From: Kribbella italica
Lineage (GTDB): Bacteria; Actinomycetota; Actinomycetes; Propionibacteriales; Kribbellaceae
DNA: 64,000 bases
NCBI RefSeq assembly: GCF_014205135.1
Contig: NZ_JACHMY010000001.1
Coordinates: 6,820,001 to 6,884,000, forward strand
Direction of reading: 5' to 3'
A program made the position numbers and the translations under genes. How positions within the stretch are numbered: the first letter of the stretch is position 1; every line of letters begins with the position of its first letter. Below the pieces are notes generated by a model, which saw only the letters and a program-made list of their open reading frames with translations, searched no databases and had not been told where the DNA came from. Shown piece after piece: positions 25,296-39,315 of this stretch.

Positions 25296-25360
25296 CTTGT
25301 TCGTTCTCTGCGAGTGGCCGGATGGTGCACTGACCAGCGGAAACACCGATCAATCGGTCA

Positions 25361-25425
25361 CTCGGAGAGTGGCGGAGGATACGAGATTCGAACTCGTGAG
25401 GGGTTGCCCCCAACACGCTTTCCAA
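25361..25425. repeat. attL: 65-bp core identical to the tRNA-Ser gene end
   Basis: These 65 bases are identical to 38400–38464. They include the 3' part of tRNA-Ser from its encoded CCA up to the anticodon loop; after 25425 the similarity stops abruptly. The bases upstream (25301–25360) also match 38340–38399, with 6 differences. This is the partial tRNA copy left by site-specific integration and marks the left end of the element. Confidence 0.92.
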
Positions 25426-25519: not shown

Positions 25520-25540
25520 AATGAGACCAGAATTGAGACC
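25520..25540. repeat. Left putative integrase arm site
   Basis: A 21-base motif with two TGAGACC units 12 bases apart. It matches 38272–38292 in 20 of 21 positions and in the same orientation. It lies 95 bases inside the left core, comparable to the spacing at the right end, as expected for arm-type integrase sites in attP. Confidence 0.65.
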
Positions 25541-25604
25541 GTTGGTAGACGGGGTGCGCGCGGTTCTCAGGGCTTCACACGCACACCCCGCCGGTCTGTG
25601 TAGG

Positions 25605-25766
25605 TCAGTTCTCGTCCAGCCACTCCGCGCCGTTGGCAGTGCGGTGGTAGCCCTTGTGTTCTCCGAGGATGCACGGCATGCCGGTGTTCGGGTGGAGGCC
25701 GTCGCAGACGTCGGTCCCTGCCCATTCAACTCCGTTCACTTCGCGCCCCGTACGTGTGCCGTTCAT
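25605..25766 (-). CDS. Small AICE protein, 53 aa
   Basis: MNGTRTGREVNGVEWAGTDV, then CDGLHPNTGMPCILGEHKGY and HRTANGAEWLDEN. The Cys–x11–Cys spacing with HKGYHR resembles short zinc-knuckle-like proteins with CxLxxxHxGxHR segments common on actinobacterial mobile elements. Start ATG 25766 lacks a strong ribosome site, so it is the least certain part. It is divergent from the XRE/TPR gene. Function unknown. Confidence 0.5.
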   Translation of the reverse strand: MNGTRTGREVNGVEWAGTDVCDGLHPNTGMPCILGEHKGYHRTANGAEWLDEN

Positions 25767-25865
25767 GGATCCAGCTTGCCGACCACCAAGCGTGAGATCA
25801 CCAGTTCCCGCGTATCCCTCGCTCTCAGGATGCAGGGAGACAAACCGATAGGAGACACTGGACCG

Positions 25866-27026
25866 GTGACCTTCGGAGACCGGCTGAGGGAGTACCGGCA
25901 ACACCGAGGTTGGTCCTTGGCCGACCTCAGCAAAGCCACGCACTACCACCGCTCCTACCTGTCGAACCTTGAGAACGGCCGCAAGCTCCCCAACGAGGAT
26001 CTGGCCCGCGTTTGTGACGAAGTACTACGCGCCAAGGGCGAGCTGCTGGCAGCGGCCAGAGATGACACGGTCTCCAAGCTCGACCAGACTCCATGGCAAA
26101 CGGCCGAGCTCGTCCAACGGATGCAAGCCAGCGACACCACGGCAGGCACCCTTGAGAGCCTGCACTCAACCGTCGAAGAGCTGTGCTGCCAGTACAACCA
26201 CCGCGACGCCCTTGAGCTGCGGCAGGAAGCGCATAGCTGGCTACAGCACGTCACAGGCCTCCTGCGTCGTCCGGTCGGCCTGAAAGCCCACGCAGACCTC
26301 CTAGTGGCCGGTGGATGGCTTGCCTTACTGGCTGGGTGTGTCGAGTACGACCTAGGAATGCGAACAGCAGCAGAGTCCACCAGGACCGCAGCGATGCAGC
26401 TAGGTCTAGAGGCCGGCCACCCAGAGATCACCGGTTGGGGCCACGAGATGACTGCCTGGTTCGCTCTGACACAAGGCCGCTTCCGCCAGGCTGTCGACGC
26501 ATCCCAGCGTGGGCAAGCCATCGCGAAGACCAGCAGCGTGCATGTCCAACTCATCGCTCAGGAGGCCAAGGCCAAAGCGCGGCTCGGTGAGTCTGGGCTG
26601 CACACTGTGCTTGAGCGGGGTCGAGACGTCCTCGACCGCTTGCCCTACCCGGACCGGCCGGACAACCATTTCAAAATCGATCCCGCCAAGTGGGACTACT
26701 ACGCGATGGACGTTCACCGAATCGCCCGAGACGACGACCTGGCCACCAAGTACGCCAGCGCCGTCATCAGCGACAACATCACTCCAGACGGCCACGAACT
26801 AAGCCCAATGCGAGTCTCTGAGTGCCGCATCACCCTCGGCATGGTTGCAGGCCGCGAAGGCGACCTTGAGCAGGCCGTAGGCCTAGGCCTCACCGGCCTC
26901 AAGGACGGCCGCCAAAGCAAGGTCCACTTACAGATGATCGCCGGAGAACTTGACCAGGAACTCCGCCAACGCTTCCCCAGCGAGGGCCTCGTTACTGAGT
27001 TCGAAGAAGCCTTGCGCGGGCTCTGA
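25866..27026 (+). CDS. XRE-type HTH protein with TPR-like C-terminus
   Basis: 386 aa from GTG 25866, with AGGAG upstream (11-base spacing); the frame is open further upstream. Residues 3–65 are an XRE HTH (FGDRLREYRQHRGWSLADLS, YHRSYLSNLENGRKLPNEDL). Residues 80–386 are helical and TPR-like (AGCVEYDLGMRTAAESTRTA, GRFRQAVDASQRGQAIAKTS, MVAGREGDLEQAVGLG), as in regulators that sense peptides or partners. Such proteins are frequent in AICEs and Streptomyces. It may be a cargo regulator or may regulate excision; neither is shown by sequence. Confidence 0.8.
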   Translation: MTFGDRLREYRQHRGWSLADLSKATHYHRSYLSNLENGRKLPNEDLARVCDEVLRAKGELLAAARDDTVSKLDQTPWQTAELVQRMQASDTTAGTLESLHSTVEELCCQYNHRDALELRQEAHSWLQHVTGLLRRPVGLKAHADLLVAGGWLALLAGCVEYDLGMRTAAESTRTAAMQLGLEAGHPEITGWGHEMTAWFALTQGRFRQAVDASQRGQAIAKTSSVHVQLIAQEAKAKARLGESGLHTVLERGRDVLDRLPYPDRPDNHFKIDPAKWDYYAMDVHRIARDDDLATKYASAVISDNITPDGHELSPMRVSECRITLGMVAGREGDLEQAVGLGLTGLKDGRQSKVHLQMIAGELDQELRQRFPSEGLVTEFEEALRGL

Positions 27027-27275: not shown

Positions 27276-27341
27276 ATGAGTATGAGGACTGAAGGGATGG
27301 TGATGCGTTGTCGAGTTCCACATGGGTCCCAAGGTCCCTGA
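27276..27341 (+). CDS. Possible 21-codon leader ORF before the cargo operon
   Basis: ATG 27276 follows a good ribosome site (GAGGTGATC) and the frame ends TGA, overlapping the next ATG as TGATG (27339–27343). The peptide MSMRTEGMVMRCRVPHGSQG is unremarkable. The arrangement suggests translational coupling that sets the level of the TIGR04255-family protein. It could equally be a misplaced start. Confidence 0.35.
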   Translation: MSMRTEGMVMRCRVPHGSQGP

Positions 27342-28102
27342 TGGCTGAGCATCGGCCGTTCTCCAGCGGGACCCACTACGCCAAGGCTCCGATCGTGGAG
27401 GCGATCCTCGAATTTCAGGTCGAGTCACCTCTGTCGGATCTCGATGAACTCCTCCCCTTGGCAGACCGGCTAGAGGGATGGAGCGATGCGACTCACGACT
27501 ACCTACTAGCTAGTGAGGTCGCGCTCTCGCCTGCCGGTGCGGAGGTGGCATCACCACAGCACGTCGCGCACATCTTTTCCCGCGCGGATCAAGCGAGAAC
27601 GCTGCATGCCGCCCTTGATCGGTGTGCCTACTCATGGGGCGCAAATTACGAGACTTGGGAAGAGCTTGCCAGCGAAGCTGTGGCGGCCTGGGAGGTCTAT
27701 CGAGACCTCGCGAAGCCAACCCACCTTCGGAGGATTGGTACCCGCTTCGTCAATGTTATAGATATTCCGTCAACTGTGGTCGAGATAAAAGATTATCTCA
27801 GAACGTCAGTAGATATATCGCCGTACTTACCGCAGGCGCTTGAGGGGTTCTTCATGCAGGTTGAAGTGCCGCTCGACTATGAACACCAAATGGGGGTAAA
27901 GATATCGTCCACCATTGCGCTCGCTCCTCCTGGAAGTACGCGCATAGTCTTGGATCTGGATACCTATAAGCGCTGCAATCTGGATCTTCAGGGCGCTGAC
28001 CTGACCGACAGGTTATGGTCAGAGTTGTCGACCTTGAGGGAAGCGAAAGACTACGTATTTGAGGCATGTATCACAGATGCAACAAGGGGGCTGATCAGAT
28101 AA
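27341..28102 (+). CDS. TIGR04255 family protein (AICE cargo)
   Basis: 253 aa from ATG 27341. The opening HYAKAPIVEAILEFQVESPL matches the start signature of the TIGR04255 family (PIVEA-hE), and the middle carries LRRIGTRFVNVIDIP and MQVEVPLDYEHQMGVKISST, in line with its beta-rich repeat core. Members are sporadic, often on mobile DNA, with no established biochemistry. The second half is AT-rich (ATA, TTA, AGA codons) compared with the flanks, a sign of recent acquisition. It heads a three-gene unit with the next two ORFs. Confidence 0.75.
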   Translation: MAEHRPFSSGTHYAKAPIVEAILEFQVESPLSDLDELLPLADRLEGWSDATHDYLLASEVALSPAGAEVASPQHVAHIFSRADQARTLHAALDRCAYSWGANYETWEELASEAVAAWEVYRDLAKPTHLRRIGTRFVNVIDIPSTVVEIKDYLRTSVDISPYLPQALEGFFMQVEVPLDYEHQMGVKISSTIALAPPGSTRIVLDLDTYKRCNLDLQGADLTDRLWSELSTLREAKDYVFEACITDATRGLIR

Positions 28103-28918: not shown

Positions 28919-29426
28919 CGGTGGGCCCGTCGAGTTGCTTTAGATCTTTCTGGAACAACGCGCCACTCATGCGGCCCGGGATGTTGCATGTGCGAACGTG
29001 CTGGAATCCGTGTGAGATGTAGTAGCTGTGCAACATGGTATTGGTGCTCCAGCAGTTCAACCGGATCCAGTGCTTGCCATCTTGGCGCGCCTGTCCGGTT
29101 ACCGCTTCAAGCAGGGCTGAGCCATAGCCGTTGCCGTGTTCTGTGACGAAGAATCGGCTTATGTAGGTCTGTGGCTCGGCTAACTCTTCAGGGCTCCAGA
29201 AGTCGACTTCTGGGTCGATAATCGCCATCATGGCGACCAGTTGGCCGTCGATCTTCCAGCCGACGAAGGGGAAGCGGTCGAAGTCGTGGTCGATGTTGGC
29301 GTGGACCTGGGCCATGTCGAGGCCGCCCCGGTATTGGTCGGTGCCCTTCGTTGCGAGCCATTCGCCTGCGTCGTCGCGGACCTGGTGGACGAGCTGCCGG
29401 TGCGATTCGTCAAGGGTGATGAGCAT
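28890..29426 (-). CDS. GNAT-family acetyltransferase in operon with GntR
   Basis: 178 aa. GNAT fold: WKIDGQLVAMMAIIDPEVDF, then YISRFFVTEHGNGYGSALLE (acetyl-CoA motif: HGNGYGSAL), and LNCWSTNTMLHSYYISHGFQ as motif B. Its ATG overlaps the GntR stop by one base (TGATG), so the two are coupled. AICE and ICE GntR repressors are often followed by a small accessory gene; the acetyl acceptor is unknown. It could acetylate a small molecule or a protein such as a toxin. Confidence 0.8.
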   Translation of the reverse strand: MLITLDESHRQLVHQVRDDAGEWLATKGTDQYRGGLDMAQVHANIDHDFDRFPFVGWKIDGQLVAMMAIIDPEVDFWSPEELAEPQTYISRFFVTEHGNGYGSALLEAVTGQARQDGKHWIRLNCWSTNTMLHSYYISHGFQHVRTCNIPGRMSGALFQKDLKQLDGPTVTHRIASHQ

Positions 29427-30157
29427 CAGTCGTCCGAGTTGAGGTCGTAGGAGACTTCTACGCGGTCGGCGGCCATGCGGGAGACCATGTAGCGAACCGG
29501 TCGGCCCTCGGCGTCGTAGCCGACGCGGCTATGGACGAGTAGCGGGGTGCCCGGCGCCATCATGAGGCGCTGCGACTCGTCTGCGCTGGGCATGCGGGCC
29601 GTGAGGAGGTCGTGCCAGCGGGTCTGCTTGTGGCCACTTGCGGCGAGTAGACCGCCTTTGACTGCGAGGTCTTTGGGATTCCAGAACAGATCACTCCCGT
29701 CCGTTACGAACGGCGGGAAGTAGGAGTCGCTGAGCTGGTGAGGTTCGTCGTTGACCCAGCGGAGGCGATTTCGTGCCTGGATCGCTGTACCTACAGGGAT
29801 CTTGAGCGCTTCGGCGACATCGGCCGGCGCCTCGATGCTGAGGATTTGCATGTCGTTCCTGGGGATCCCACCTTGAGCCCTGATCGTGTTCGACCAGGCG
29901 TCGCCATCGTTGTTGTGGGCCTTCTCCCACTCGGCCATTTTCCATTCCCAGCGGTGAATCTTGCGGACTTGCCGGGTCCTGCCCTGGCTGCTGGTAATCA
30001 GTCCTTCGGCCTCTAGAAGGGCCAGTGCAGCACGCACCGTGTTCCGGCTCGCGCCGTAGCGCTCCACCAGCTCGGCCTCACTGGGCAGGGGGGAGCCTGG
30101 CTCCCCGAGCGAGTCGCGGATCAGCCGCGCAACCCGCTCTTGCAACGTCTCTGGCAT
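29426..30157 (-). CDS. GntR/UTRA-type transfer repressor (KorSA-like)
   Basis: 243 aa. Residues 1–70: GntR winged helix (LQERVARLIRDSLGEPGSPL, PSEAELVERYGASRNTVRAA, LEAEGLITSSQGRTRQV). Residues 95–240: UTRA ligand-binding domain (IEAPADVAEALKIPVGTAIQ, LVHSRVGYDAEGRPVRYM, DRVEVSYDL). In AICEs such proteins (KorSA of pSAM2) repress replication and transfer genes and their own transcription. The gene is divergent from the transfer region, with an inverted-repeat operator array between them, which fits that role. Confidence 0.88.
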   Translation of the reverse strand: MPETLQERVARLIRDSLGEPGSPLPSEAELVERYGASRNTVRAALALLEAEGLITSSQGRTRQVRKIHRWEWKMAEWEKAHNNDGDAWSNTIRAQGGIPRNDMQILSIEAPADVAEALKIPVGTAIQARNRLRWVNDEPHQLSDSYFPPFVTDGSDLFWNPKDLAVKGGLLAASGHKQTRWHDLLTARMPSADESQRLMMAPGTPLLVHSRVGYDAEGRPVRYMVSRMAADRVEVSYDLNSDD

Positions 30158-30170
30158 CTCAATTCCTCTC

Positions 30171-30247
30171 GTCTACTTGACAAGCTTAGCCAGCTTGTTC
30201 CAACATGTCACTCAGGCAACTTGTTCCCACAAGCTGTACAAGTAGAC
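30171..30247. promoter_or_regulatory. GntR-type operator array between the repressor and transfer genes
   Basis: Outer arms GTCTACTTG (30171) and CAAGTAGAC (30239–30247) are exact inverted copies 77 bases apart. Inside are further CTTGTTCC direct repeats (30194, 30220) and ACAAGC units (30180, 30229). GTCTAC is the half-site pattern of GntR/HutC regulators. Several dimers could bind and shut both promoters. Confidence 0.7.
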
Positions 30248-30345
30248 CAAGACCGATAGGACCCGAAAGACGACGCCCCGGCGGTGGCACCCGCCGAGGC
30301 GTCTGGGGTCGCTCTCATCCGTTTCTGCAGAGGAGCACGCAACCC

Positions 30346-31770: not shown

Positions 31771-33975
31771 ATGCCCGAGAATGCCAATGAGATCCCCGAG
31801 CCGATCGACCTGGACGCCCGCCGCGCCCGCCGTGACGACACCGCCCCGGCCGCCTCGGCTGAGTCGACCGAAAGTGCCGGCGTAGCGGTGCCGCTGTCGG
31901 TTGGTGAGGTCGAGCGGATGGATACCGCCTATGAGGTCGCGTTGGACGACGACGCGGAGACCGGTGCGGGCAAGGTGTTGGTGCCGGTGGATACGCCGGG
32001 TTTGGCGGTGCCGGTGACGCCGGGGGAGCGGCTGCCGATCATCCCGGTTCACCTGCTCCCGCAGAACCTTCGCGCCACGGTCCGGCGTGCGGTGGTCCGG
32101 TCGGGTCACGTGGCCGCGTTCCACGCGGTCCGGTCGCCGTGGTACGGCGCCAAGCTGGCCTGGTTCGCCGGTCGTGGCTTCGCTCGTGTGGTCAGCAACC
32201 AACTGCGGTGGTGGTGGGTGCCGAACTCGTTTGCCCTTGAGCAGAAGGCTGCTGACGGCAACGAGCTGAAGGAGTGGGAGAAGATCCACCGCGAGCTGAA
32301 GCGGACCCGGCTGTGGCGTGGCGGCGTTCTCGCGGCCCAGAACCTTGGCCTTGCCATCAGTGCGCCAATTGCCCTGAACGCTGCTCCTACGGCTGCTGTG
32401 GCGCTTGCTGGTGCTGGTCTGGTCGCTGCGGCGGCGCATTACGGGCGTCCGGCTGGTCAGACCCTGGTCGGTACGGCGGTGGTCGCTGCACGGTTCCGGA
32501 AGCTGAACTCTGACATCGTGCTGCGCGCCTACTACGCGGCCGGACTCGGCAAGCCGGACCGTGCCGACCAGGAGGTGCGGTTCGGGTCGCAGATGTCGCG
32601 TGATGCCCGCAACACCGGCTCTCAGGTGCTGGTGGATCTCCCGTATGGCAAGGGCTGGTCGGACGTGTCCGGTAGCAGGGAGAAGATCGCTTCCGGGCTG
32701 GACGTGCACGTGAATCAGGTGTTCCTGACGCCGGACAAGACCAGCTCGCGCCGCCACACGTTGTTCGTGGCCGACCGTGACCCACTCGCCGTCCCGGTCG
32801 GCCGGACATCGTTGCTGGACTGCAAGCGCCGGTCGATTTGGAAGGCGTTCGTGATCGGCCGCGATGAGCGGGACTCGCCGGTCAAGCTGTCGCTGATGTG
32901 GAACTCGCTGCTGGTCGGCGCCCAGCCCCGCAAGGGCAAGACGTACTTCGCGCGCCTCCTGGCGCTCTACGCCGCGTTGGATCCGAACGTCCGGTTGATC
33001 GTGGTCGACGGGAAGAACTCGCCGGACTGGCTGGCGTTCAAGAAGGTTGCCCACCGCATCGTTTTCGGCACCCATCCCAACCCGAACACTGATGACCCGA
33101 TCGAGACGTTCCGGGCGATCCTCGACGAGATCCTTGCCCACATCGACCGGGTGAACAGCATTCTGACGACGCTGCCGGTGGAGCTGTGCCCGGAAGGCAA
33201 GCTCACTGAGGAACTGCACAACGATCCCCGCTACCCGGACCTGCACGTCCTGGTGCTGGTGATGGAGGAGTTTCAGGTGTACTTCGAGACTGAGGACCAG
33301 GCGGTCAACAAGGAGATCGCCGCCAAGCTGTCCCGTATCCAAGCCGTCGGCCCGTCGGCGGGTGTGATCATCGAGTCCAGCTCGCAGAAGCCGTCCGGTG
33401 TTGGTGCGGGCGACGTGGCGCGGTTGTTCAACCGGTACAGGGATAACCACACGCTGCGGTTCGCGCTGAAGTGTGGCAACCGGGTCGTGTCCGAGGCGAT
33501 CTTGGGCGGTGACGCCTACCAGGAAGGCTTCGACGCAGCGACCCTGCCGGTCGGTGACGAGTACCGGGGCGTCGGCTACCTGTACGGCGCCTCCGACGCG
33601 ACGCCGACCGTGCGGACCGAGCTGGCCGACGCGACCGACGCGGACAAGATCCTGACCGCCGCTCGCGTGCTGCGGGAACGGCTCGGACTGCTGTCCGGCA
33701 TGGCGGCAGGCGAGGAGATGCAGCGCGGTAGCCGTGACGTCCTGGCCGACATCCTCACCGTCATGGGCGCCGACACTGCTGCCCACTGGGACACGATCGC
33801 CGGTCGGTTGGCCGACCAGATGCCGGAGCAGTACGACGGCACCACGCCGGACGCGATCTCGGCTCAGGCGCGCGGGCTGAACGTGTCCAGCGTCAACGTG
33901 AAGCGCGACGGCGCGACCCGCAAGGGCGCCAAGGCCGACGACATCCGCGCCGCCATCGCCCGCCGCAACACCTAA
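31771..33975 (+). CDS. traB: TraB/FtsK-type DNA translocase for conjugation
   Basis: 734 aa from ATG 31771. An N-terminal membrane-proximal region (LGLAISAPIALNAAPTAAVA, then ALAGAGLVAAAAHYG) anchors it. The ATPase core has Walker A GAQPRKGKTYFARL (about residue 388) and Walker B LHVLVLVMEEFQVY, as in FtsK/SpoIIIE proteins. The C-terminal ~90 residues (VLADILTVMGADTAAHWDTI, ISAQARGLNVSSVNVKRDGA) look like the winged-helix DNA-recognition domain that reads short repeats in the clt locus. AICE transfer needs only this hexameric pump. The GGTAGCGG array begins 55 bases after its stop. Confidence 0.9.
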   Translation: MPENANEIPEPIDLDARRARRDDTAPAASAESTESAGVAVPLSVGEVERMDTAYEVALDDDAETGAGKVLVPVDTPGLAVPVTPGERLPIIPVHLLPQNLRATVRRAVVRSGHVAAFHAVRSPWYGAKLAWFAGRGFARVVSNQLRWWWVPNSFALEQKAADGNELKEWEKIHRELKRTRLWRGGVLAAQNLGLAISAPIALNAAPTAAVALAGAGLVAAAAHYGRPAGQTLVGTAVVAARFRKLNSDIVLRAYYAAGLGKPDRADQEVRFGSQMSRDARNTGSQVLVDLPYGKGWSDVSGSREKIASGLDVHVNQVFLTPDKTSSRRHTLFVADRDPLAVPVGRTSLLDCKRRSIWKAFVIGRDERDSPVKLSLMWNSLLVGAQPRKGKTYFARLLALYAALDPNVRLIVVDGKNSPDWLAFKKVAHRIVFGTHPNPNTDDPIETFRAILDEILAHIDRVNSILTTLPVELCPEGKLTEELHNDPRYPDLHVLVLVMEEFQVYFETEDQAVNKEIAAKLSRIQAVGPSAGVIIESSSQKPSGVGAGDVARLFNRYRDNHTLRFALKCGNRVVSEAILGGDAYQEGFDAATLPVGDEYRGVGYLYGASDATPTVRTELADATDADKILTAARVLRERLGLLSGMAAGEEMQRGSRDVLADILTVMGADTAAHWDTIAGRLADQMPEQYDGTTPDAISAQARGLNVSSVNVKRDGATRKGAKADDIRAAIARRNT

Positions 33976-34029
33976 ACCGCGCGGGCAACAGAGAGTCACC
34001 AACTCATCAGGGGCAGCGGGACAGCCGGA

Positions 34030-34224
34030 GTAGCGGCCTGGCCGCTACCGGTAGCGGCAACGCTACCCGTCCCGCTACCCCGCAACCCAGACCTGACCAG
34101 GCCGTTCATCCACGCGTAGCGGGTAGCGGCCACGGCTCCTCACGCCCAAAACAGCCCTCTGGAGGCATTCCATGCCCAGCAGTGCCGCTACCCCCTACCT
34201 GGTCGCCGCTACCCACGGTAGCGA
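34030..34224. repeat. GGTAGCGG iteron array, ten copies in both orientations
   Basis: Copies of the core GTAGCG (mostly as GGTAGCGG or its complement CCGCTACC) lie at about 34030, 34042, 34050, 34061, 34072, 34116, 34122, 34185, 34206 and 34217. The array starts 55 bases after traB and runs into the next gene. In mobile elements of this type the TraB recognition repeats (clt) lie near traB and are 8-mers, so this is the leading candidate; replication iterons are the alternative. Confidence 0.75.
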
Positions 34225-34507
34225 GATGGCCGCCACCGTCCACACGGCCGGACAGGTCGCCACCGTCGCCCTGGCCGTCACCGCCTGTGCCGTCTTCTAC
34301 CTCCTCACCTGCGCGGTCTGGCCGTTCGGGAAGTGCCGACGCTGCAAGGGCGCAGGCAAGTTCAAGTCCCCATTCGGCAACGCGCTCCGGCACTGCGGGA
34401 AGTGCGACGGCTCGGGTCTGCGGGTCCGGTTCGGCCGCAAGGTCATCGGCTACTACCGCCGCACCCGCAGCGCGGGCAGCAACTCGACCAGCAAGGGAGA
34501 CAAGTGA
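34172..34507 (+). CDS. Membrane-anchored DnaJ-type zinc-finger-like AICE protein
   Basis: 111 aa, ATG 34172 after TGGAGG. One transmembrane helix (TVALAVTACAVFYLLTCAVW), then CRRCKGAGKFKSP and CGKCDGSGLRVR, two CxxCxGxG units as in the DnaJ cysteine-rich zinc domain, and a basic tail. Such proteins recur in AICEs and actinobacterial plasmids near rep genes. It may bind DNA or protein at the membrane. The 5' end contains iteron copies. Its stop overlaps the prim-pol start (TGATG). Confidence 0.7.
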   Translation: MPSSAATPYLVAATHGSEMAATVHTAGQVATVALAVTACAVFYLLTCAVWPFGKCRRCKGAGKFKSPFGNALRHCGKCDGSGLRVRFGRKVIGYYRRTRSAGSNSTSKGDK

Positions 34508-35385
34508 TGACCGAGACCCTGACCGCAGCACTCGCCGCCGCAGCACACGGCTGGCCAGTGTTCATGCTCGGCCGCTCCAAGCGGCCGGTCGCCAACTGCG
34601 AGCCCTGCCGGATCGCCACCGACCATGACCCCGCGTCCTGCGGTCACCTGACCTGCCACGGGTTCTACGCCGCCACCACCGAACCGGATCGCATCACGGC
34701 GCTTGTTGCTGCCGTTCCCTACGGCCAGCTCGCCGTCCGCACCGGCGCCGTGTCCGGCCTCCTGGTGGTCGACGTCGATCCTGCGCACGGCGGAACGGAA
34801 AGCCTCAACCGGTTGCTGATCGGCGGGTTGCTGCCGCGCACTCGGCGGGTGATCACCGGCTCGGGTGGCCTGCACTTGTACTACCGCCACCCCGGCCAGC
34901 ACCTGCCGTCGCGGCCGATGCCCGGCCACCAGGGAATCGACATCAAGGCAGACGGCGGGTACGTCGTCCTCCCGCCGTCGATCCACCACCGCACCGGCCT
35001 GCCCTACCGGTGGGCGACCATCGGCGCGGCCGAGGTGATGGAGATGCCCCCCGCCTTGGTCACGGCCTGCCTGCCCCCTGCGCCGGCCGAATTGGCGACC
35101 CTCCAACCGGGCTCGACCACGGCGCGACCGGGCGGGGGCATCTCCCACCCGGACAAGCTCCTCGACGCTCACCTGGACGCCGTACGCCGTGCCCCGAAGG
35201 GGAAGCGCCGGGCGACCCTGTACGGCGCCGCGCGAGGGGTCGCGCGGATGGTCGCAGCCGGTGCGATCGACCCCGCCGACGCGGTCACCGCGCTGACCTT
35301 CGTCGGACACCAAGCCGCCCAGACCGACCGAGACATCAAAGCCGCCATCGACGGCGGTTTCCGCGACGAAGGGATCGCCGCATGA
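34507..35385 (+). CDS. Bifunctional primase/polymerase (prim-pol) replication protein
   Basis: 292 aa. Prim-pol domain in residues 1–190: the start ALAAAAHGWPVFMLGRSKRP, a cysteine cluster (NCEPCRIATDHDP, SCGHLTCHGFY), the catalytic VVDVDPAHGG, then ITGSGGLHLYYRHP and IDIKADGGYVVLPPS. These match the DxD-like metal site, the GGxHhYY histidine and the DhK(A/G)xGG(Y/F)hVhPPS motif. It should synthesise primers and extend DNA to start plasmid-mode replication. The C-terminal ~90 residues are helical. It overlaps the DUF3631 gene. Confidence 0.88.
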   Translation: MTETLTAALAAAAHGWPVFMLGRSKRPVANCEPCRIATDHDPASCGHLTCHGFYAATTEPDRITALVAAVPYGQLAVRTGAVSGLLVVDVDPAHGGTESLNRLLIGGLLPRTRRVITGSGGLHLYYRHPGQHLPSRPMPGHQGIDIKADGGYVVLPPSIHHRTGLPYRWATIGAAEVMEMPPALVTACLPPAPAELATLQPGSTTARPGGGISHPDKLLDAHLDAVRRAPKGKRRATLYGAARGVARMVAAGAIDPADAVTALTFVGHQAAQTDRDIKAAIDGGFRDEGIAA

Positions 35386-36704
35386 CCACCGACAACCACG
35401 ACCAGGCCGACGCCATCGACGGCGCCGAGCTGCTGGACGACGTGGCCGCGACCATCGGCCGCTACGTCATCTTGCCCAGCACGTCCGCCTTGATCGCAGT
35501 GGTTCTGTGGATCGCCGCCACGCACGCCATGGAAGCCTGGAACTGCGCCGCCCGGCTCGTCATCCGCGCACCCGAACGACGCTGCGGGAAGTCACGGCTA
35601 CTCGACATGGTCGAAGCCATGTGCCACCGGCCGCTGATGACCGTCAACGCCAGCCCGTCAGCGGTCTACCGCGCCATCGGCGCGAATCCGGGTCACCCGC
35701 CGACGCTGCTGATCGACGAAGCAGACACGATCTTTGGCCCGAAGGCAGGCGACAACGAAGCGCTGCGCGGTCTGCTCAACGCCGGTCACCAGCGCAACCG
35801 TCCAACGCTGCGGTGGGATGCCAGCACCCGGCAAAACGAGGAGATCGAGACGTTCGCTATGGCCGCCCTCGCGGGCATCGGCGCGATGCCGGACACGATC
35901 GAAGACCGCGCGGCCGTGATCCGGATGCGTCGCCGTGCGCGCGGTGAAACCGTCGCGCCGTACCGGATCCGCCGTGACGGCCCGGACCTCGACCTGCTGC
36001 GCCAGCGACTCAACCAGTGGATCACCCCGCACATCGACACACTCACCGACGCCACCCCGGATATGCCGCTGGAAGACCGTGCTGCCGACACCTGGGAACC
36101 GCTGATTGCTCTGGCCGATCTGGCAGGTGGGCAGTGGCCGCGCGCCGCCCGCAAAGCTGCCCTGTCTCTGACCAGCGACCACGACGCGAGCGATGAAGGA
36201 TCAATCCCGACCCGGCTGCTGGCCGACTGCCGTACCGCGTTCCAGGACGCCGACGCGCTTCAGACCGCTGTCCTGCTCGAACGGCTCTGCGCCGACCCTG
36301 AAGCGCCCTGGGCGACGCTGGGCGCCAACGGACTCACGGCCATGAAGATGGGCAACCTGCTGCGCGATTTCGAGATCCGCAGCGACACCATCCGCTTCAC
36401 CACCGGCCAAGCCAAAGGCTACGTCCGCAGCGATTTCACCGACGCATGGAACCGCTACTGCCCCGACCCAAAACCAGCGTCCGGGGAAGCCGTACCAGCC
36501 GTACCAGCCTCAACATCGCAGGTCAGCCCCGAAGAGGCTTCCCCCACTGGTACGGCTCAAGCCGTACCAAGCACCCAAGCCTCCTTGACCCTGACCTGCG
36601 AAAACGAGCCTGGTACGGCTGGTACGCCTTGGGGACCCCGACCCGTTCCACCCCTCTCCGACGACGGCGCCACTGACACCAATCACACCCGAGCGACCGC
36701 ATGA
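35382..36704 (+). CDS. DUF3631 helicase-like replication protein
   Basis: 440 aa from ATG 35382 (ATGA overlap). P-loop region APERRCGKSRLLDMVEAMCH (Walker A-like xxxCGKS), Walker B TLLIDEADTIFG and sensor-like DASTRQNEEIETFAMAALAG, followed by the DUF3631 C-terminal domain (NGLTAMKMGNLLRDFEIRS, KGYVRSDFTDAWNRYC). With prim-pol it forms the AICE RepPP-type module. The last 70 residues are low-complexity and their DNA holds six AGCCGTACCA repeats, so the gene end probably doubles as the origin. Confidence 0.85.
   Translation: MTTDNHDQADAIDGAELLDDVAATIGRYVILPSTSALIAVVLWIAATHAMEAWNCAARLVIRAPERRCGKSRLLDMVEAMCHRPLMTVNASPSAVYRAIGANPGHPPTLLIDEADTIFGPKAGDNEALRGLLNAGHQRNRPTLRWDASTRQNEEIETFAMAALAGIGAMPDTIEDRAAVIRMRRRARGETVAPYRIRRDGPDLDLLRQRLNQWITPHIDTLTDATPDMPLEDRAADTWEPLIALADLAGGQWPRAARKAALSLTSDHDASDEGSIPTRLLADCRTAFQDADALQTAVLLERLCADPEAPWATLGANGLTAMKMGNLLRDFEIRSDTIRFTTGQAKGYVRSDFTDAWNRYCPDPKPASGEAVPAVPASTSQVSPEEASPTGTAQAVPSTQASLTLTCENEPGTAGTPWGPRPVPPLSDDGATDTNHTRATA
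36488..36629. repeat. AGCCGTACCA iterons in the 3' end of the DUF3631 gene
   Basis: Decamer AGCCGTACCA or its complement occurs at 36488, 36497, 36548, 36560, 36611 and (one mismatch) 36620: two direct, one inverted, one direct, two inverted. The coding sequence here is Pro/Ala/Thr low-complexity, so the constraint seems to be on DNA. Replication origins inside or just after rep genes are usual in AICEs, which makes this the best oriV candidate. Confidence 0.7.
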
Positions 36705-36973
36705 ATGACCACAGGGAGCTGTTCGTGACTAACGCTCATGAGGGAGATGCCCAGTTGCAGCAGGCAACTAATGAACTGGCTCCGCTGCTGCTCACGGTTG
36801 AGGAGGCGGCAGCACGTCTCGGGCTTGGACGCACGTTCACGTTCGCACTCATTGGATCGGGCGAGCTGGAGTCTGTCGCCGTTGGCCGACTGCGGAGGGT
36901 CCCAGTCGAATGCCTGACGGAGTACGTGAACCGACTTCGCTCGGCCGCTCACCAGCACCAGACAGCCGCCTAG
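36701..36973 (+). CDS. xis: Excisionase (Xis), MerR-type HTH
   Basis: 90 aa, ATG 36701, overlapping the upstream stop as ATGA. The core LLTVEEAAARLGLGRTFTFA, then LIGSGELESVAVGRLRRVPV is the HTH_17/excisionase pattern. Such proteins bend att DNA to favour excision by the neighbouring integrase. It lies 12 bases upstream of int in the same operon, the standard AICE xis–int order. Confidence 0.88.
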   Translation: MNDHRELFVTNAHEGDAQLQQATNELAPLLLTVEEAAARLGLGRTFTFALIGSGELESVAVGRLRRVPVECLTEYVNRLRSAAHQHQTAA

Positions 36974-36985
36974 GAGGAGTTGAGA

Positions 36986-38263
36986 ATGGGACGCAAACCG
37001 AACCACGCCTCAAGCATCTACAAGGGCTCAGACGGTGGCTGGCACGGCCGAGTCACCGTCGGAGTCAAGGACGACGGAACGCCGGACCGGCGACACGTGC
37101 GCGGCAAGAGTGAGGCCGTCGTAACGAAGAAGGTGCGTGAGCTGGAGCGCTCCCGCGAGGACGGCAATGTCCGCAAGGCAGGAAAGCCGTGGACAGTAGA
37201 GATGTGGCTGAATCACTGGCTTGAGAACATCGCGCGGCCGAGTGTTCGAGAGTCGAGCTATGCGGCCTACGAGGTCGCCGTACGGAAGCACCTGATTCCT
37301 GGGATCGGTGCTCACAGACTCGACAAGCTTGAGCCTGAGCACCTCGAAAAGCTCTACCGGAAGATGCAGGAGGAGGGGAGCAAGGCAGGGACGGCCCATC
37401 AGGCTCACAGAACGATCCGCACGGCTCTTGGTGTGGCGCATCGCCGGAAGCGCATCACCAAGAATCCCGCTGCAATGGCCAAGCCGCCGCGAATCGATGA
37501 TGTGGATGACGAGGTAGAGCCGTACACCGTGGCTGAGGTCCAGCTCATTCTCGAGGAGGCCAAGAAGTCGCGGAACAGCACCCGATGGGCCTTCGCGCTT
37601 GCGCTTGGACTTCGCCAGGGCGAAGCGCTCGGCCTGATGTGGTCGGACGTCGACCTGGACAAAGGAGTACTCAGAGTCCGCCGAAGCCGGGTGAGGCCAA
37701 AGTACGAACACGGATGCGGTGACCAGTGCGGTAGGAAGCACGCGGGCTACTGCCCTGATCGACGGCAGGTCGGGCCGGAGGTCGCTAACACGAAGTCGAA
37801 GGCTGGCCGCCGCAGCATGGGGCTACCCGACAAGCTAGTAGAACTCCTGCGGGCGCATAAGAAGCAACAGGACGCCGAGCGATCAGCGGCGCGGCAGCTC
37901 TGGCAAGAAGGTGGTTGGGTGTTTGCGTCGGAGACAGGAGAGCCCCTGAATCCGAACACTGACTACCACCGGTGGAAGGAATTGCTGACAGCGGCTGAAG
38001 TCCGAGAAGGTCGGCTGCATGACGCCCGGCACACCGCCGCAACGGTTCTCCTGGTGCTCGGGGTGCCGGAGCGGGCAGTGATGGGGATCATGGGCTGGTC
38101 GACAACGGCCATGGCTGCCCGCTATCAGCACATCACCGAGGCAGTCCGTCGCGACATTGCCGACCGGGTCGGCGGCTTGCTCTGGGCCGTTCCCGACCTG
38201 CCTGCGACTCCGGAGGATCGAGACGAGGAAGGCGGAGCAGCGGGGGTCGCCGTACCGGCCTGA
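36986..38263 (+). CDS. int: Tyrosine recombinase integrase
   Basis: 425 aa from ATG 36986 (AGGAGGAG upstream). N-terminal arm-binding region (KPNHASSIYKGSDGGWHGRV), SAM-like core-binding domain (WLNHWLENIARPSVRESSYA, RTALGVAHRRKRI), and catalytic domain with Arg in LGLRQGEALGLMW, the HDARHTAATVLLVLG box (HxxR), MGWSTTAMAARYQH (His/Trp position) and the nucleophile Tyr in RYQHI. It integrates the element into tRNA-Ser and, with Xis, excises it. It lies about 140 bases from the attR core, as is typical. Confidence 0.95.
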   Translation: MGRKPNHASSIYKGSDGGWHGRVTVGVKDDGTPDRRHVRGKSEAVVTKKVRELERSREDGNVRKAGKPWTVEMWLNHWLENIARPSVRESSYAAYEVAVRKHLIPGIGAHRLDKLEPEHLEKLYRKMQEEGSKAGTAHQAHRTIRTALGVAHRRKRITKNPAAMAKPPRIDDVDDEVEPYTVAEVQLILEEAKKSRNSTRWAFALALGLRQGEALGLMWSDVDLDKGVLRVRRSRVRPKYEHGCGDQCGRKHAGYCPDRRQVGPEVANTKSKAGRRSMGLPDKLVELLRAHKKQQDAERSAARQLWQEGGWVFASETGEPLNPNTDYHRWKELLTAAEVREGRLHDARHTAATVLLVLGVPERAVMGIMGWSTTAMAARYQHITEAVRRDIADRVGGLLWAVPDLPATPEDRDEEGGAAGVAVPA

Positions 38264-38334: not shown

Positions 38335-38399
38335 CTACTTCGTTCTCTGCGAGTGACCGGATGTTGCTCTGACCAGCGGAAACACCGGTCAATCGGCCC

Positions 38400-38464
38400 C
38401 TCGGAGAGTGGCGGAGGATACGAGATTCGAACTCGTGAGGGGTTGCCCCCAACACGCTTTCCAA
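38400..38464. repeat. attR: 65-bp core within the intact tRNA-Ser gene
   Basis: Identical to 25361–25425. It spans the tRNA 3' half plus 9 bases beyond the CCA. The crossover must lie within it, most likely in the anticodon-stem/loop part, as for other tRNA-targeting tyrosine integrases. Confidence 0.9.
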
Positions 38465-38496
38465 GCGTGCGCCCTAGGCCACTAGGCGAATCCTCC
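38409..38496 (-). tRNA. tRNA-Ser (anticodon GGA)
   Basis: Read on the minus strand from 38496: acceptor GGAGGAT pairs with ATCCTCC, discriminator G, and an encoded CCA at 38411–38409. The anticodon arm CACGC-TTGGAAA-GCGTG gives anticodon GGA (Ser, UCC). The T arm is CGAGTTCGAATCTCG and the long variable arm is class II. It is the integration site of the AICE and remains intact after insertion. Confidence 0.97.
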
Positions 38497-39315
38497 AAGC
38501 GGAGAGAATACGCGAGCGGGGTGGGCGGGGGGAAATCGGGGGTGGGAAGCCCCGGAGTGGATCGAGGAGAGCCCTTCCGGAGCCAACGCCGCCCGGCAAC
38601 CGGGTGCATGGAGGACGCCTCGTCTCCCGGCAACCAGGCCAGGGATACAGCCGCCAGCTGCCGACGCCGGGCGCCGATCCCCACAGTCGGGCCACCCGGG
38701 GACTCCTCCGCGTCCGGCAACCGGCCGGTACCAGGATCCTGCCGCCTGCCGCCTGCCGCCTGCCGCCTGCCGCCTGCCGCCTGCCGCCTGCCGCCTGCCG
38801 CCTGCCGCCTGCCGCCTGCGCGTCCCGTGCACGGGCGCATCGGGCCTAACGGGATCTGCTCCGCACCTCCTGGCACCCTGCCTCGCGATTCGCGGCATCG
38901 TCCCCCGAGCCTCCTGGCATCCGCGCACACGGTGGTGATCGAGCCGGGCCACGGCGGCTTCCCTGCACCTCCCGGCATCTGCCCCGCGTGCCTCCCGGCA
39001 TCGTCAGCGCGCCTCCCGCCACCGCCCCCGCGCCTCCCGGCACCTGCCACCGCCTCCCGGCGTCCGCCTCCCGCGCCTTCCGGCATCGCCCCGCGCCGCC
39101 CGGCACTTGCCTTTCCGCGCTTTGCGCCCGGCTCCCTCGCATCGCGCCTCCCGGCACACGGGCCCCGGCGTTTCACCTCCCGGCGCCCGCATCTCGGTTC
39201 GCTCGTCGGCGACCGGCGACCGGCGACCGGCGACCGGCTGGTGATAGCGGGGACGGCATGCGTGGGGTTGTGAAAACGGGAGGCTTGGGACCGGGGTTGG
39301 TTCTAGGGTCGGGGG
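38497..39315. repeat. Low-complexity region: 7-bp tandem repeats and CCTCCCGGCA-like units
   Basis: It contains a near-perfect tandem array of the 7-mer CCTGCCG at 38738–38819 (about 11.7 copies), a second array of CGGCGAC at 39207–39240 (about 4.5 copies), and between them many imperfect CCTCCCGGCAtC units. The long overlapping frames code only for Arg/Pro/Gly/Ala low-complexity and I do not accept them as genes. The end of the region holds the promoter of the acetyltransferase gene. Confidence 0.8.

Follow-up and report, generated by a model that had tools for sequence, protein, structure and literature searches.

A traB-linked array of octamer sites as the predicted clt locus of an actinomycete integrative and conjugative element

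The array lies in an AICE inserted in tRNA-Ser(GGA)

The stretch of DNA analysed here (the window, 64,000 nucleotides) corresponds to C1:6820001-6884000 of a complete 8,885,108-base Kribbella italica genome. The repeat array that is the subject of this work is carried by an actinomycete integrative and conjugative element (AICE) of 13 kb, which has tRNA-Ser(GGA) as its insertion site. Two 126-nt direct repeats that are 95% identical mark the att sites; the left copy occupies positions 25300-25425, and the right copy (38339-38464) extends into the tRNA-Ser(GGA) attachment gene (38409-38496, minus strand). Between them lie a gene for a GntR-family regulator (29426-30157, minus strand) and, all on the plus strand, genes for the 734-aa FtsK/SpoIIIE-type DNA translocase TraB (31771-33975), a small ORF (34172-34507), a Prim-Pol primase/polymerase (PF09250; 34507-35385), a DUF3631/RepAM-type replication protein (35382-36704), an excisionase (HTH_17; 36701-36973) and a tyrosine integrase (36980-38263). 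DUF6284 and a 294-aa ORF are also found between the att copies. The product of the small ORF is hydrophobic in its N-terminal part, has zinc-finger-like CxxCxGxG motifs and is possibly Spd-like; a PHROGs scan gave only weak matches to families of unknown function.

The tyrosine integrase, tRNA att repeats and Rep and TraB modules by which an AICE is recognized are all present, and the gene order is the standard AICE layout. The element resembles the RepAM/Prim-Pol AICEs pMEA300 and SLP1, which combine a tyrosine integrase, Xis, Prim-Pol and/or DUF3631, TraB and a tRNA attachment site; the RepAM replication protein is DUF3631 (PMC3218068).

Several other features were observed in the window. 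The left end of the element encodes an NsdA-like regulator (25521-27026) and a TIGR04255 protein (27308-28102), which are probably cargo. Repeats of the ACTTG/CAAGT type at 30150-30250, in the interval from the GntR gene to the next ORF, are likely the GntR operator. A 7-bp tandem repeat, CCTGCCG, occupies 38738-38833, just beyond the right att site. A neighbouring second AICE had been suspected from short repeats; the domains encoded at 10.6-23.6 kb proved to be those of transporters and regulators, and this candidate was rejected.

Composition and layout of the array

An earlier note, made from the sequence alone, had described ten copies of GGTAGCGG in both orientations just after the translocase gene and running into the next coding region. 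The predicted clt array (about 34029-34224, both strands) does contain ten exact GTAGCG cores, five on each strand (34030+, 34043-, 34051+, 34061-, 34073-, 34116+, 34123+, 34186-, 34207- and 34218+), but only six of these are full GGTAGCGG octamers (34042-, 34050+, 34072-, 34122+, 34185- and 34206-). The four remaining cores deviate from GGTAGCGG at one outer base only, and additional degenerate sites are present at 34080 and 34192. The position was as described: 54 bases separate the end of the traB stop (33975) from the first core, and the 3′ part of the array overlaps the small ORF, whose ATG is at 34172.

The sites are arranged irregularly. A perfect 16-bp palindromic pair, CCGCTACCGGTAGCGG (34042-34057), forms a head-to-head arrangement that is found at this place in most relatives, and is followed by two minus-strand sites, ACGCTACC and CCGCTACC (34060-34079). 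A conserved non-repeat block, CTGACCAG (consensus CTGAYCWG; 34093-34100), precedes the next GTAGCG core by 15 nt. That core belongs to a plus-strand direct-repeat pair with a 7-bp step, CGTAGCGGGTAGCGG (34115-34129), which is also kept in most relatives. A second conserved block, GCCCAAAAC (34144-34152), lies upstream of the ribosome-binding site, and the last sites (CCGCTACC twice, CCCCTACC and GGTAGCGA; 34185-34224) lie within the initial codons of the small ORF.

The earlier note had called for a chromosome-wide count of the hexamer as a measure of local enrichment. GTAGCG occurs 2879 times in the 8,885,108 bases (0.324 per kb), as compared with 10 times in these 195 bases, and GGTAGCGG occurs 513 times in the chromosome. 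Outside the array, the maximum per 195 bases was 2 in the rest of the 64 kb window and 3 in a sample of 400 kb. For 10 copies in 195 bases, the Poisson probability was estimated as ~1e-19 per position, or ~1e-12 after a genome scan. We also considered a chance or compositional cluster in GC-rich DNA, as head-to-tail microsatellites of this genome contain other 6-mers at 8-17 copies per 195 bases. Density alone is therefore not unique to the array, and its layout and conservation carry as much of the argument as its density. What distinguishes the array is the combination of mixed orientation, irregular spacing and conservation. Its density against a background of 0.32 per kb, its mixed orientation, a layout kept in dozens of relatives and the absence of a reversed control pattern (below) together refute the chance reading, to which we assign a negligible probability. 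A chromosome-polar (KOPS-like) role of GGTAGCGG was also dropped, as the octamer was found on both strands throughout 20 samples of 20 kb.

TraB combines an FtsK motor fold with a C-terminal winged helix

Fold comparison of the TraB model identified DNA-bound FtsK motors (6t8g, E 5.7e-13), and the protein also matched an FtsK/SpoIIIE-like PHROG (E 1.5e-17). TraB gave no Pfam match at E 0.001, and a sequence search against solved structures gave no credible match. Long N-terminal helices span residues 97-225 in the model. The last 95 residues were modelled with high confidence as a winged helix (pLDDT 87), the fold neighbours of which had middling scores; FtsK gamma was absent among the fold matches listed for this domain, which does not exclude it. 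The winged-helix domain (residues 655-734, encoded by 33733-33972, plus strand) is the predicted reader of the octamer. Its recognition helix comprises residues 693-702, and N709 (33895-33897, plus strand) and K711 (33901-33903, plus strand) are situated in the strand and wing that follow this helix.

The array is coupled to traB

We surveyed 38 Kribbella genomes with the strict spaced pattern GGTAGCGN{2,8}CGCTACCN{2,10}CGCTACC, using the reversed pattern as a control. The strict pattern was found 20 times, and each of the 20 matches immediately followed a traB, or a contig-split piece of one, that had been located independently, whereas the reversed pattern was absent from the same 38 genomes. 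As expected of a clt locus, the array adjoins a tra gene and is inherited with it. Among the matches listed for exact GTAGCGGGTAGCGG, eight coincided with loci and two more lay beside known traB arrays. The only two matches listed away from traB, both exact GTAGCGGGTAGCGG direct repeats, had raised the possibility of arrays without traB in Kribbella; they were dismissed as chance occurrences inside a gene without an array, which was labelled IstB-like from a reading of its sequence only.

The closest TraB relatives come from Kribbella. Coupling extended well beyond the genus. An equivalent array directly follows the traB stop in nearly all of 30 relatives from named genomes, and nearly all further loci from genome searches likewise had one. 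Across Actinomycetota, an equivalent array occupies this position in most TraB relatives. We then scored 89 loci (56 in the close family) by a blind octamer score against 3560 matched control windows. In the close family, 47 of 56 loci reached or exceeded the 95th percentile of the controls, and 45 of all 89 loci reached or exceeded the 99th. The distant arrays with CTAG-type sites were weak by this octamer statistic, 12 of 33 reaching the 95th percentile. A phylum-wide search with the Actinomadura TraB returned its own genome only.

As a positive control, the same blind motif search was applied to the Streptomyces venezuelae plasmid pSVH1. It returned GACCCGGA, of which five exact copies occupy the gap immediately behind traB; we take this octamer to be the TraB site published for the plasmid.

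Independence of the array from the replication module

A second reading, also raised in the earlier note, is that the array is a replication origin consisting of iterons for Prim-Pol, DUF3631 or another Rep encoded just downstream. The array is immediately upstream of the replication genes, iterons commonly adjoin rep, and the plasmid pWTY27 has an iteron origin that is bound by its own RepA (PMC3583192). However, an iteron origin would be inherited with its Rep, and we found the same array with unrelated replication modules. GGTAGCGG arrays accompany Prim-Pol and DUF3631 in the window element and in L021-L023, L026, L027, L033 and L035; a remote Prim-Pol and an AAA_25 protein in L024, L029 and L031; DUF3631 without Prim-Pol in L034; and DUF3987/DnaB in L039. 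The distant CTAG-type arrays occur with DUF3987 or RepSA. Because the array persists with completely different replication modules, with homology between the Rep proteins lost while the array stays, it tracks TraB and not Rep. Together with the position behind traB of all 20 strict Kribbella arrays, these results make an origin highly improbable, and we favour a clt locus, the interpretation for which the earlier note had argued.

Octamer switches accompany changes in the TraB wing

The octamer in most close relatives is GGTAGCGG. The earlier note had suggested that it would be a new specificity. One correction is needed here: the octamer is not confined to this element but is common to TraB relatives of many genera. 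Other octamers were found nonetheless. In L032, L037 and L044 the site is GGTCGCGG, switched across the whole array; in L047 it is GGTAACGG; and six elements of another family have G/T-GTAAC. On a tree of the TraB motor, the TAAC class needs two origins and the TCGC class up to three.

Three elements of one strain, Actinomadura montaniterrae CYP1-1B, allowed a close comparison. L039 and L049, both with GGTAGCGG, are identical at TraB residues 690-734. L044, which has GGTCGCGG, is 76% identical to them over these residues as compared with 81-96% in the rest of TraB, while much of the spacer text of its array is kept. A two-residue insertion in the wing tip is common to L044 and L037.

Two positions of the wing region were associated with the octamer class. 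Residue 709 is N or D in 46 of 46 rows of the TAGC and TCGC classes and A or P in 7 of 7 TAAC rows, which represent two independent origins. Where the sites are of the TGTA type, residue 711 is R or Q (10 of 10 rows); among the other 43 rows it is K in 39. By itself N709 is only suggestive, because in a null test 2 of 47 pseudo-groups likewise had a comparable winged-helix column that separated them; the weight of the case for a code switch lies in the agreement of several lines. The recognition helix is nearly constant among the one-base code classes. Different repeats thus appear to be matched to their own TraB, in a correlative sense. A partial Mantel test of array distance against winged-helix distance was positive, but an equal value was obtained with a control stretch from within traB, and the test is not counted as evidence.

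Two minor observations concern the switches. In L038 (Actinomadura geliboluensis), one direct-repeat site contains GTAACG and the rest of the array GTAGCG, and TraB residue 717 is unusual; this is possibly an intermediate state. In the window element, replacing GCT by GCG at 34185-34224, as in the GGTCGCGG code, would be synonymous in the frame of the small ORF (Ala-Thr kept).

Conserved blocks within the array

The non-repeat block CTGAYCWG was present in 53 of 89 arrays as compared with 3.8% of control windows, and CCCRAAAAC in 48 of 89 as compared with 2.4%. In most cases CTGAYCWG is separated from the site that follows by 15 nt or by 4 nt; these distances differ by 11 bp, about one helical turn. 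Similar block text is found in pSVH1 and pSG5. A second binding partner may act at the two blocks, or they may have a function in the leader.

These blocks bear on a third reading, in which the array is an operator or RNA element, that is, a set of regulator sites or leader hairpins of the downstream small ORF. The blocks require some explanation other than the octamers, palindromic sites are situated upstream of the ribosome-binding site, and concerted changes would preserve possible RNA pairing as well. Against this, the GntR promoter region (about 30150-30250) contains ACTTG-type repeats and not GTAGCG, the array is constant while the kind of small ORF that follows it differs between groups, and the octamer switches track TraB wing residues. 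We therefore regard an operator or RNA element as very unlikely, and return below to the array as a clt locus.

Comparison with known clt systems and proposed function

One of the closest parallels is the clt/TRS of pSVH1, in which an octamer cluster likewise lies directly after traB and ahead of a small gene. The two systems also share upstream GntR and spd genes, a TraB that is an FtsK homologue with a C-terminal winged helix, and similar CTGACCTGCG/AAAC spacer text. They differ in that the pSVH1 octamer is GACCCGGA, mostly in one orientation, on a plasmid with another Rep, whereas here GGTAGCGG forms head-to-head as well as direct pairs and the host element is an AICE with Prim-Pol and DUF3631. 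The pSVH1 TraB reads its repeated 8-bp motifs via helix alpha-3 of the winged helix (PMC3583192); in contrast, the recognition helix here hardly varies between one-base code classes.

The position is also that of the Streptomyces pWTY27 clt, which consists of the last 16 bp of traA and 159 bp downstream and whose short direct and inverted repeats are footprinted by TraA, although those repeats are TGACACC and CCCGCCC (PMC3583192). The clt loci of pJV1 and pIJ101 likewise consist of clustered short direct repeats that Tra-dependent transfer requires in cis (PMC3583192), but with other sequences: nine CCGCACA[CG][CG] in pJV1, and 5-bp repeats plus an inverted repeat near korB in pIJ101. For AICEs clt has so far been a gap; no clt was described for pSAM2 (PMC9513070). 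We found no description of the present array in the accessible literature, most subscription papers being outside the search.

The best explanation of these data, and one that we hold with considerable confidence, is that the array is the clt of the AICE and that the octamer is a specificity code, predicted to be read mainly by the part of TraB that follows the recognition helix, namely the strand and wing with N709, K711 and the wing tip. By analogy with the pSVH1, pJV1 and pWTY27 plasmid systems, TraB would bind the array and load as a hexamer, and the array would be required for transfer. Most likely, TraB would load on the octamer cluster, and the loaded TraB would then pump the excised double-stranded element into the neighbouring cell.

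A broader proposal is more tentative, and we give it slightly less than even weight: AICEs across Actinomycetota would use a modular TraB-clt address code in which the clt layout is conserved and the octamer is rewritten together with a few TraB strand and wing residues while the recognition helix stays constant, and the fixed-phase CTGAYCWG would mark where a second partner in the transfer complex contacts the DNA. Such ideas become testable once a clt is recognizable from sequence and comes with natural one-base code switches and candidate residues for specificity; the cross-compatibility of elements is one example. The array can also serve as a marker for finding and classing AICEs.

If true, the modular code predicts which co-resident elements can move each other, and this genome encodes two further TraB proteins. 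A second AICE-type traB (L052; G000:C1:4516321-4521510) specifies a TraB that is 73% identical; it has a GGTAGCGG array of its own, and a Prim-Pol is encoded close by. The third, distant TraB (L053/L112; G000:C1:7174178-7184000) is ~30% identical and is followed by CTAG-type sites and a divergent Prim-Pol. The window element and L052 (C1:6.85 and 4.52 Mb), both with GGTAGCGG arrays, are predicted to be cross-compatible, whereas L053, with its CTAG-type sites, is predicted to have a different transfer specificity and to be incompatible with the two GGTAGCGG AICEs.
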